64,000 bases of DNA from Ideonella benzenivorans (lineage in GTDB: Bacteria; Pseudomonadota; Gammaproteobacteria; Burkholderiales; Burkholderiaceae_C). The stretch spans positions 1 to 64,000 of the forward strand of contig NZ_JAGWCB010000008.1 in NCBI RefSeq assembly GCF_020387415.1, written 5' to 3'. Position 1 is the first letter of the stretch. Each line of letters begins with the position of its first letter. The notes below the pieces were generated by a model. It worked only from the letters and a program-made list of their open reading frames with translations. It had not been told where the DNA came from and searched no databases. Below are positions 60,918 through 64,000 of this stretch, in pieces. The position numbers were made by a program, and so were the translations under genes.

Positions 60918-62882
60918 ATGTTCTCCAACCCTCGCAACGAACTCGTGGTGTCCCAGGCTTGGCAGACCTTGCTGGAGGGGGGCGAGCTGCCCAGCGGCGC
61001 GGTGCGGGCCTTGGTCAACCAGTCTTGGCAGCGGTGTGCCCAGGCCCATGTCGATCCGCTGCGGCGGCGCGGCCTGCGCCCGGTGTCCGAGCAGGATCTC
61101 TACCTGCTGCAGGAGCGCCAGAAGGACCTGCTGGACGCGGCTTCCCCGGTGATGGCCTGTGCGCGCGACTACCTGGCCGAGACCGGCACGCTGATGGCCC
61201 TGAGCGATGCGCACGGCACCATCCTCGTCACCGAGGGGGACCACCCGGCGCTGGACGCGGCCGAGGCGATTGCGCTGGTGCCAGGCGTGAGCTGGAGCGA
61301 GCTGGACTGCGGCACCAATGCCATCGGCACCGCGCTGGCGGCGGAGCGGCCGGCCCAGATCCATGCCACGGAGCATTTCTGCGCCGGTATCCAGGGCTGG
61401 ACCTGTTCGGCCGCGGTGATCCGCCATCCGCTGGATGGCGAGTTGCTGGGCACGCTTGACGTCTCCGGCCTCTCGGGCACCTACCACCGGCAAAGCCTGG
61501 CCTTCGTCGTCAACACCGCCAGTCGCATCGAGGCCCGGCTGGCCATGGTGGAGATGGAGCGCCGCTACCGCCTGCTTGAGCATGCCCTGGAGCGCTGGTC
61601 GGCCGAGGGGCAGGACGCGATGGTGTTGTTCGACCGGCGGGGCTGCCCGGTCAAGGCCAGCGCCCAGGCCCAGCGGGCGATCGACGCCGCGGGTGGCCTG
61701 CTGGACCTGAGTGGGCGGCAGCCCGTGCCGGGGCTGCGGGCGGGCCGTTGGCGGCGCGGCGGCCAGCCGGGGCCTTTGCCCGACTGGCTGCGCGGCGAAT
61801 GGCTGGAGCCTCTGGTGGTGCGCGGCGAGTACCTGGGCACGTTGCTGGTGCTGCCGGCCGGCGGGCGGCGGCCGGTGCCTCGGCCCAAGGACGTGACCAC
61901 GGTGGAGCCCAAGGCGCCGGCCGGCTTCGAGCGGGTGCTGACCCGCGATGCCGGCATGCGCGCCCTGATGGACAAGGCCCGGGTGCTGGCCGCCTCGCAG
62001 GCCCCGGTGCTGCTGCAGGGCGAAACCGGCGCCGGCAAGGAGGAGTTCGCCCGTGGTCTGCATGGGGACCGCCGCGGCGCCTTCATCGCCCTCAACTGCG
62101 GCGGGCTGTCGCGCGAGTTGCTGGCCAGTGAGCTGTTCGGCTACGCCGAGGGCGCCTTCACCGGGGCGCGCAAAGGCGGCATGGTCGGCAAGATCGAGGC
62201 CGCCGAAGGCGGCACGCTGTTCCTGGACGAACTGGGCGAGCTGCCGCTGGACATGCAGCCGCAGCTGCTGCGGGTGCTGGAGCAGGGCATGGTCCACCGC
62301 CTGGGCGAAACCCAGCCCCGGCAGGTGCGTTTCCGCCTGGTGGCCGCCACCCACCGGGACCTGCGCCAGGAGGTGGCGGCCGGGCGCTTCCGCATGGACC
62401 TGTACTACCGCATCGCGGTCACGCGGCTGCACCTGCCGCCGCTGCGCGAGCGGCCGGACGACATTCCATTGTTGGCGGCCCATTTCCTGCAGCGCTTCCG
62501 GGCCGAACAAGGGCAGGTGGCCGAAGCCCTGAGCGGCGAGGTGCTGGCGGCCCTGACCGGGTACGCCTGGCCGGGCAATGTGCGCGAGCTGCGCAACGTC
62601 ATGGAGGCCGCGGTGCTGATGCGGCCGGAGGGCCCGTTGCGGCCTGGCGACCTGGGGTGCGAGACCTGGGACGCGGATGGCGAGGCGGCGGAGGCCGCCG
62701 GGGGCCTGGCCCTGGGCGACAGCCTGGCCGAAGGCGAGGAGGCGCAGATCGGCCGTGCCATCGCGGGCTGTGGTGGCAACCTGACACTGGCCGCGCGACG
62801 GCTGGGCATCGCCAAGAGCACGCTCTACGCCAAGATGCGGCGCTACGGCCTGAGCCGGGACCGCGGCGGCTCGGCACATTGA
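60918..62882 (+). CDS. acxR: Sigma-54-dependent activator, AcoR/AcxR family
   Basis: The protein of 654 residues has a GAF-type sensor (about 75-200), a central AAA+ domain with Walker [13 protein letters not shown] (about 367), GAFTGA (about 411, contact with sigma-54), and Walker B FLDELGEL, and a Fis-type helix-turn-helix ([20 protein letters not shown], about 620-640). It likely activates the acx operon from the promoter at 52905-52920, responding to acetone or 2-propanol. ATG 60918 is used; no strong Shine-Dalgarno is visible. Confidence 0.88.
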
Positions 62883-62912
62883 GCCCATCTCACGGGCCGA
62901 GCGGCCCAAGGG

Positions 62913-62952
62913 TCGTCATCCGGCCGTCATCCGGCCGTCACCGCGGGGTCAC
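62913..62952 (+). promoter_or_regulatory. Tandem Pho-box-like array before plcP
   Basis: Half-sites TCGTCAT (62913), CCGTCAT (62924), CCGTCAC (62935) and GGGTCAC (62946) repeat at exactly 11 bp, the spacing of PhoB half-sites (CTGTCAT consensus). Each keeps the GTCAT/GTCAC core. Four repeats make two Pho boxes. They end 24 bp before the plcP start at 62977, as expected for a PhoB-activated promoter. Confidence 0.75.
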
Positions 62953-62976
62953 CGCCGGGCTGCAGCATGAGGACTC

Positions 62977-63867
62977 ATGCAGCCCAACGCCTCGCCCCTC
63001 CCGCCCGCCGGAACGGCCGATGTCGACCCCGAACCCCAGCGCTACCGGGCGATCTGGATTTCGGACATCCACCTGGGCACCCCCGGCTGCCAGGCCGAGG
63101 CGCTGCTGGATTTCCTCAAGCGCACCGAGAGCGACACGCTCTACCTGGTGGGCGACATCATCGACGGCTGGCAGCTGCGCCGCAGCTGGTACTGGCCGCA
63201 GGCCCACAACGACGTGGTGCAGAAGATCCTGCGCAAGGTGCGCAAGGGCACGCGGGTGATCTACGTGCCGGGCAACCACGACGAGTTCGCCCGCAAGTAC
63301 CTGGAACACAGCTTTGGCGGGGTGGAAGTGGCGCACGACTGGGTGCACACCACCGCCGATGGCAAGCGCCTGTGGATCACCCACGGCGACCTGTTCGATG
63401 GCGTGATCCAGTGCGCCAAGTGGCTGGCCTATGTCGGGGACTGGGCCTATGAGTTCACGCTCAAGCTCAATGCCTGGCTGAACCGGCTGCGCGGCCGCCT
63501 GGGCCTGCCGTACTGGAGCCTGTCCAAGTACCTCAAGCTCAAGGTCAAGCGGGCGGTCAGCTTCATCGGAGACTACGAGGCGGCGGTGGCCCGCGAGGCC
63601 CGCAAGCGCGAGGTGCAGGGCGTGGTCTGCGGCCACATCCACCATGCCGAGCTGCGCGAGATCGACGGCCTGCTGTACGCCAACGATGGCGACTGGGTGG
63701 AGAGCCTGACGGCCCTGGTCGAGCACCTTGACGGTCGCCTGGCCTTGCTGGACTGGTCCGACCTGGCGCGGCCCTATGGCGCGGCGGCCCCGCTGCCGGG
63801 GCGTGCCGAGCTGCCCGACGATGTCGCCACGCCGCTGCCCCTGCCGGTGGCCGCGCGCCGGCTCTGA
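62977..63867 (+). CDS. plcP: PlcP-type phospholipase C (calcineurin-like phosphoesterase)
   Basis: The 296-residue metallophosphoesterase has the metal-binding motifs ISDIHLG (about 28-34), VGDIIDGW (about 58-65), PGNHDEF (about 92-98), THGDLFDG (about 129-136) and GHIHHAE (about 213-219). LpxH-type enzymes share this, but the extended RSWYWPQAHNDVVQKILRK insert and the 270-300 length match PlcP, which in phosphate starvation cleaves phosphatidylcholine and phosphatidylethanolamine to free phosphate so that glycolipids can replace them. The Pho-box array immediately upstream supports this over an LPS role. Confidence 0.82.
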   Translation: MQPNASPLPPAGTADVDPEPQRYRAIWISDIHLGTPGCQAEALLDFLKRTESDTLYLVGDIIDGWQLRRSWYWPQAHNDVVQKILRKVRKGTRVIYVPGNHDEFARKYLEHSFGGVEVAHDWVHTTADGKRLWITHGDLFDGVIQCAKWLAYVGDWAYEFTLKLNAWLNRLRGRLGLPYWSLSKYLKLKVKRAVSFIGDYEAAVAREARKREVQGVVCGHIHHAELREIDGLLYANDGDWVESLTALVEHLDGRLALLDWSDLARPYGAAAPLPGRAELPDDVATPLPLPVAARRL

Positions 63868-63917
63868 TCCCCAGCAGGAGGGATCGGCCCCGGTTGCTTC
63901 TGCGCATCAAGGCCCCG

Positions 63918-63946
63918 GGGTCATGGTCCTGTCACGAAATTTTCAT
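63918..63946 (+). promoter_or_regulatory. Second Pho-box-like array, before the truncated last gene
   Basis: Half-sites GGGTCAT (63918), CTGTCAC (63929) and TTTTCAT (63940) fall at 11-bp steps. The middle site matches the PhoB consensus almost exactly and the third is weaker. A -10-like TAGACT follows at 63946-63951, with the ATG at 63958, so the Pho array is at promoter position for the last gene. Confidence 0.65.
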
Positions 63947-63957
63947 AGACTGGGCGC

Positions 63958-64000
63958 ATGACAGAAGTCCCCGAGCCCCAGACGGCCGCTGTTGCGATGC
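63958..64000 (+). CDS. Truncated gene at the window end, probable Pho-regulon member
   Basis: The first 14 residues, MTEVPEPQTAAVAM, are seen before the window ends. A glycosyltransferase often follows plcP in lipid-remodelling clusters, but no family can be recognised from so few residues. The upstream Pho-like array suggests phosphate control. A later start, for example ATG 63997, cannot be excluded. Confidence 0.4.
   Translation, partial: MTEVPEPQTAAVAM

Follow-up and report, generated by a model that had tools for sequence, protein, structure and literature searches.

In Ideonella benzenivorans, the gene plcP is preceded by a tandem Pho box of four half-sites, followed at a fixed offset by a predicted -10 element and, a few nucleotides later, by the start codon. 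This layout recurs in many relatives and would place plcP under the control of PhoB, with an mRNA that has little or no leader. We assign a probability of roughly 0.92 to this reading taken as a whole, that is, to a plcP gene driven by PhoB from a promoter with a -10 but no -35 element, transcribed as a nearly leaderless mRNA and involved in lipid replacement. The genome measures 4.49 Mb, and the 64,000 nucleotides analyzed (hereafter the window) are the first part of its contig 16. The features discussed below are the following:

62915–62952, + strand: tandem Pho box with four GTCAY half-site cores, with head-to-tail room for two PhoB dimers
62963–62968, + strand: predicted -10 element CAGCAT, whose first base is 15 bp downstream of the first base of the last half-site core; a -35 consensus is absent
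62969–62977, + strand: discriminator of 8 nt, with transcription predicted to begin on the A of the start codon or no more than about 3 nt from it
62977–63867, + strand: plcP, encoding a calcineurin-like metallophosphoesterase, a putative PlcP-type phospholipase C of 296 aa
63920–63946, + strand: second Pho box, before ppk1 (GTCAT at 63920, GTCAC at 63931 and TTCAT at 63942)
63946–63951, + strand: predicted -10 element of ppk1, TAGACT, with 6 nt between it and the ATG (63958)
63958–64000, + strand: start of ppk1 (polyphosphate kinase 1, 702 aa), which continues beyond the end of the window

The array before plcP is located in the 94-bp gap between a gene for a sigma-54 activator (stop codon at 62880–62882) and the 296-aa open reading frame at 62977. 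A direct reading of the sequence gives GTCAT at 62915–62919 and 62926–62930, and GTCAC at 62937–62941 and 62948–62952. The cores are thus spaced by 11 bp each, with 24 nt from the last core to the ATG of plcP, and the four half-sites, periodicity and positions given in a preliminary description of this DNA are borne out. The same description called them GC-rich variants of CTGTCAT, which holds only in part. The GTCAY cores are exact and the spacers are indeed GC-rich, but exactness is limited to the core; the two preceding bases are TC, CC, CC and GG, in place of the CT found in E. coli. In effect, the array has GTCAY cores as a direct repeat at 11 bp, as expected of a Pho box, and lacks the full CTGTCAT half-site with an A/T-rich spacer. 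The latter can be regarded as part of the consensus but not as defining, because the Pho-box consensus quoted in the part of PMC8528852 used here leaves the spacer as N. The same intergenic gap also holds a perfect inverted repeat (GGGCCG-AG-CGGCCC, at 62894–62907), directly after the stop codon of the upstream gene and with no T run.

The pattern is more frequent than expected by chance. Three half-sites with at most one mismatch are expected 0.03 times in the window when the sequence is shuffled and are observed three times; two of these matches belong to the plcP array, and the other is the ppk1 site at 63920. Across all 4.49 Mb of the genome, this pattern is found 10 times in the forward and 0 times in the reverse orientation, while a backwards control gives 0 and 2 matches, respectively.

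Conservation was assessed with plcP orthologues from 200 genomes of the same family, which was taken as Burkholderiales, judged from its named members. A match at E ≤0.001 is present in 170 of these genomes, and 140 of the matches listed are at E 1e-105 or better. Upstream DNA was compared for 110 orthologue loci (30 + 80), the window's own locus included; 30 of the 140 strong matches, mostly of lower identity, lie outside this set, as do weaker and cut matches. Pairs of GTCAY in these 110 loci are spaced by 11 (23 times), 22 (25 times) or 33 nt (15 times), and no other spacing up to 60 nt is seen more than once. When the four half-sites are scored together (maximum 20, threshold 16), 49 of the 110 loci reach the threshold at period 11, and 38 reach a score of at least 17; at the other periods, 7–10 and 12–16, 0–1 loci reach the threshold. 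The 49 array-bearing loci span 38 genera, according to a count of the genus column. Only the window's own array attains 20/20, and among the relatives, conservation is lowest for the third half-site, whose T is kept in 21 of the 49.

Alignment of the 49 arrays also locates the promoter. The most informative columns are an A at +16 (48/49) and a T at +20 (47/49) from the last core, which we take to be positions -11 and -7, respectively, of a -10 hexamer for sigma-70. In 47 of the 49 arrays, the first base of NANNNT is at +15; each of the other 20 offsets tested gives 0–6. As is typical of a Pho box, the array stands in place of a -35 element, with the -10 at a fixed offset, and no stand-alone sigma-70 promoter was found in 62700–64000. 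A stricter pattern, consisting of two half-sites, the -10, 6–9 nt and an in-frame ATG, is present in 40 of the 110 loci; it never appeared in 100 rounds of shuffling, and at six wrong spacers it was found in 0–3 of the 110. Among named records, which may share species with the 110-locus set, 47 of 79 usable loci have it (80 were fetched, one of them too short), for instance in Variovorax, Roseateles, Ideonella, Rubrivivax and Aquabacterium.

The short distance to the start codon is the most unusual part of the layout. An in-frame open ATG lies 27–30 nt past the last core in 48 of the 49 arrays, that is, 6–9 nt past the -10, and the GC content by codon position counted from this ATG (0.71/0.58/0.83) is coding-like. 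A Shine–Dalgarno (SD)-like four-letter word precedes the conserved ATG in just 1 of the 48 loci, under a background of 8% (405/4950). Because the ATG follows the -10 by 6–9 nt and the SD-like word is found only once, the plcP mRNA is predicted to have little or no leader, in contrast to that of olsB. At the level of the family, then, the -10 is directly before the ATG, there is no SD and this layout is conserved. The one locus with an SD-like word is the window's own, where GAGGA (62969–62973) is found 3 nt 5′ of the plcP ATG, a sequence that a leaderless mRNA would not be expected to carry.

Among the alternatives, the one that survives best accepts that PhoB binds the array but supposes an ordinary leader made from an upstream start, with the position of the ATG fixed by something else or with translation starting later. 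The GAGGA of the window agrees with it, and so does the presence, in 17 of the 48 loci, of another in-frame ATG further on, before the conserved core. Nevertheless, just 3 of the 48 loci have an SD-like word before an ATG or GTG further on, the frequency of such words before the conserved ATG is under background, and the -10 is conserved at 6–9 nt from that ATG. The olsB gene of the same family also argues against it, as it has a normal leader: an in-frame ATG is found within 30 nt in only 4 of 29 loci, and in 22 of 29 an SD-like word stands before an in-frame start. Since plcP and olsB share the array and the -10 and differ in this distance, the short distance belongs to plcP and not to the cassette. 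An ordinary leader is thus unlikely, although it has to be taken seriously. A leaderless olsB was itself considered and rejected: in this genome, besides the in-frame ATG at 27 nt, the gene has one at 48 nt that is preceded by an SD-like word, and an in-frame ATG within 30 nt is missing from 25 of the 29 loci of the family.

The near-leaderless layout of plcP looks lineage-specific. Beyond the host's own family, 75 genomes of the class had a match, and loci from 40 of them were compared; 11-bp arrays are present in these loci as well, with five scoring at least 14/15 for three half-sites and none doing so at four other periods. The -10 is in register in 17 of the 40. The first in-frame start in these 17 is mostly more distant, at 39–63 nt in 14 loci, at 27 nt in two and not found in one, and it is this difference that suggests a restriction to the lineage. 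Starts of this kind have a precedent in Burkholderia cenocepacia, for which PMC4603805 reports 72 starts that coincide with the start codon and a further 42 no more than 10 nt away, 24 of these being tRNAs.

The 110 plcP loci show two ARRANGEMENTS: plcP has its own array in 49 and lies behind olsB in 35, while none has both and 26 have neither. The 61 loci that score below 16 consist of these 35 and 26, and some of the 26 have partial arrays only. In the 49 loci of the first kind, olsB is not upstream in the stretch taken; in the 35 of the second kind, it is on the same strand, and plcP has no array of its own at score 16. A four-half-site array scoring at least 16 is instead found before olsB in 25 of the 35, always with NANNNT at +15; no array was seen before olsB in the stretch taken for the remaining 10. 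A separate search gave an olsB match in 124 of 150 genomes, and four half-sites with a -10 precede olsB in 29 of the best 30 of these 124 loci. Because of shared ancestry, the either/or counts are not independent events. We lean towards the view that, in this family, for plcP and in this genome also for its neighbor ppk1, the PhoB sites, the -10 and the start codon have been fused into one unit that would yield leaderless mRNAs in phosphate starvation, and that lineages keep either this cassette or a plcP behind olsB, never both.

As for ppk1, which is the next gene after plcP, it would also be leaderless. It lies behind plcP on the same strand in at least 24 of the 110 loci, whose flanks differ, and similar Pho sites are seen by eye before ppk1 in many of those 24. 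Further downstream (L009 8045–12542), there is a histidine-phosphatase-like gene, presumably SixA-like, together with genes for a PstS-like binding protein, a protein with a PAP2/LPG-synthase domain and a family-2 glycosyltransferase. The genes 3′ of ppk1 may thus form a wider phosphate and lipid cluster.

The rest of the genome was searched with the cassette minus its start codon, which gave 21 matches, compared with two for a backwards control. Nine of the 21 precede recognized phosphate or lipid-replacement genes, namely pstS, plcP, ppk1, olsB (PF13444), a gene for a glycosyltransferase similar to MGDG synthase, phoD, ppk2 and two phytase-like genes. The array is thus common to known PhoB-regulon genes of the same genome; pstS itself has the cassette with two half-sites, on the strand of the gene at C13:493260. 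One match each lies before the genes for a lamin-tail protein, a protein with a pyruvate-kinase domain and a protein without a Pfam match. Together with two matches that lack a gene assignment (C9:510844 and C13:59709), these make five of the 21 with no clear link to phosphate metabolism, and about seven are seemingly inside coding sequences, probably by chance. Pattern matches at C13:538270, before a DUF47-pit gene pair, and at C13:493315, before pstS, are on the strand opposite to the gene. At the DUF47-pit transporter, the reversed GTCAY array (C13:538270–538296; L054 4271–4309) is just downstream of a TACAAT box, which looks like repression of the transporter by PhoB. Before one of the phytase-like genes, two Pho-type cassettes are found 207 bp apart (C9:510637 and C9:510844; L143/L144), with a short open reading frame between them.

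The glycosyltransferase (PF06925, 29.3 bits for a cut-off of 25) deserves separate mention. Its gene (C18:23447; L056 3448–4709) is preceded by three half-sites, of which the first is GTCAA, and by CAACCT as the -10, with an ATG 7 nt later. It lies within the plcP flanks taken in 18 of the 110 loci, and its array is conserved in part only, with a score of at least 16 in 10 of 26 loci and in none at seven other periods.

The gene behind the array was described at the outset as a PlcP homologue, and its product fits this assignment. The protein matches Metallophos (PF00149) with 47.8 bits for a cut-off of 21.5 and contains SDIHLG, VGDIIDG, GNHDE, THGD and CGHIHH, presumably the metal-site motifs. 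It is distinct from LpxH, whose profile it matches with 37.8 bits (cut-off 134), whereas the true LpxH of this genome is encoded elsewhere and scores 226.4 bits. Among solved structures, LpxH entries are its sole matches, and these are weak. A Sinorhizobium meliloti protein, which may be other than the characterized PlcP, shares 51.7% identity with it over 91%. The enzyme probably breaks down membrane phospholipids. Of its plasmid homologues, 20 of 25 among the matches listed are named UDP-2,3-diacylglucosamine diphosphatase, a name that is probably wrong for the PlcP-type group.

A single protein of the genome exceeds the curated cut-off of the PhoB profile (347.3 for 296.2 bits), and the next one scores 197.8. 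This PhoB is 53% identical to that of E. coli and keeps R193, H198, R201, R203, T217, R219 and Y223, while E177 is replaced by A and R200 by K; we take these residues to be DNA contacts. Its recognition helix is, as judged from this alignment, close to that of E. coli. In addition, the E. coli K-12 pstS promoter has GTCAY cores at 11 bp and a TATTTT -10 at +15 from the last core (GTCAC), as here, although its spacers are A/T-rich and its leader has AGGAG before the ATG. PhoB very likely controls plcP, as the preliminary description proposed, and such control is known in kind. This reading draws support from the conserved register, the offset of the -10, the cassette at pstS and other phosphate genes, the conserved PhoB and a PlcP-type product distinct from LpxH, while binding and a response to phosphate are predicted. 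The flanks and spacers that differ from CTGTCAT speak against it, as do the 26 loci with neither an array nor olsB upstream, the 10 olsB-linked loci in which no array was seen, the often degenerate third half-site of relatives and the probable chance matches in the genome.

Tandem half-sites at about 11-bp spacing are usual for the OmpR/PhoB family, and 18 winged-helix matches of this family are present in the genome; another of these response regulators might then read the direct repeats in place of PhoB. Against this, the cassette also stands in front of pstS, phoD and ppk genes, E. coli pstS shares the core and the offset, and in the seven of the 17 other winged-helix domains that were aligned, the recognition helix differs from that of PhoB. 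A different regulator is therefore very improbable. It is even harder to sustain that plcP is mainly read through from the gene for the sigma-54 activator, or from a sigma-54 promoter, with the repeat playing a minor part. The upstream gene is on the same strand and ends 94 bp before plcP, but the array and the -10 are conserved in 49 loci, and a sigma-54 promoter directly before plcP is ruled out, as 62883–62976 has no site with three or fewer mismatches. Finally, the array is not a chance repeat in GC-rich intergenic DNA, an idea already refuted because its register is conserved over 38 genera with diverged spacers, even if GGCC-rich spacers and the identity of the first two 11-bp units could stem from local duplication.

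The following sequence of events would account for the PhoB-driven layout. When phosphate is scarce, PhoR phosphorylates PhoB. Dimers of PhoB would then line up head to tail on the four 11-bp half-sites and, judging by the layout, recruit sigma-70 polymerase to the CAGCAT -10 in a promoter without a -35. Transcription would start at the plcP ATG or within a few bases of it, leaving little or no leader. According to the functions expected of their families, PlcP would cut phospholipids to diacylglycerol, the co-regulated glycosyltransferase similar to MGDG synthase would convert it to glycolipid, and OlsB would contribute phosphorus-free ornithine lipid. The phosphate set free could be reused.

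Parts of this pathway have been described in other bacteria. In Pseudomonas aeruginosa, plcP-agt1 and agt2 have the predicted Pho box CTGTCATNNNNCTGTCAT, and PlcP is raised in low phosphate and feeds glycolipid synthesis, as stated in the part of PMC8528852 used here. The two species are alike in that a PlcP gene has a predicted Pho box. By contrast, plcP and the glycosyltransferase gene apparently form one operon in P. aeruginosa, while here plcP has its own four-half-site cassette and looks leaderless, and the glycosyltransferase is MGDG-synthase-like and encoded elsewhere in the genome. A predicted Pho box before olsB has been reported in 21 of 43 genomes of Burkholderia sensu lato, and in 43 of 43 with a second matrix (PMC7814305, in part). 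That study of bacteria related to the host models an 18-bp box, and plcP is absent from its main text; the passages used here do not describe four half-sites followed by a -10 at a fixed offset. In marine bacteria, putative Pho boxes occur in plcP clusters, and plcP lies near genes for phosphorus-free lipids; the gene orders differ, and Betaproteobacteria and Burkholderia are absent from the main text (PMC4796936). Likewise, sections of PMC11828411 describe Pho boxes before olsB in Acinetobacter, and sections of PMC9239053 demonstrate the plcP-agt pathway in Methylosinus. No report of a fixed -10/ATG cassette or of a leaderless PhoB-driven plcP was found in searches of the open-licence literature.

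Control of plcP by PhoB is thus already known in kind, and what is added here is the rigid, near-leaderless layout and the either/or relation with olsB. The preliminary description did not touch on the -10, on a start with almost no leader, on olsB and the glycosyltransferase as partners, or on the ppk1 box at 63920. By conservation, PhoB-driven replacement of membrane lipids would extend to a broad group with Variovorax, Roseateles, Ideonella and Rubrivivax among its members, with olsB, the glycosyltransferase gene and ppk1 named as partners under the same cassette. The sharp motif GTCAY, 10 nt, NANNNT could serve to find Pho-regulon genes in high-GC genomes without A/T-rich spacers. If it is true, the leaderless start of plcP would connect phosphate starvation with leaderless translation in a way that can be tested.
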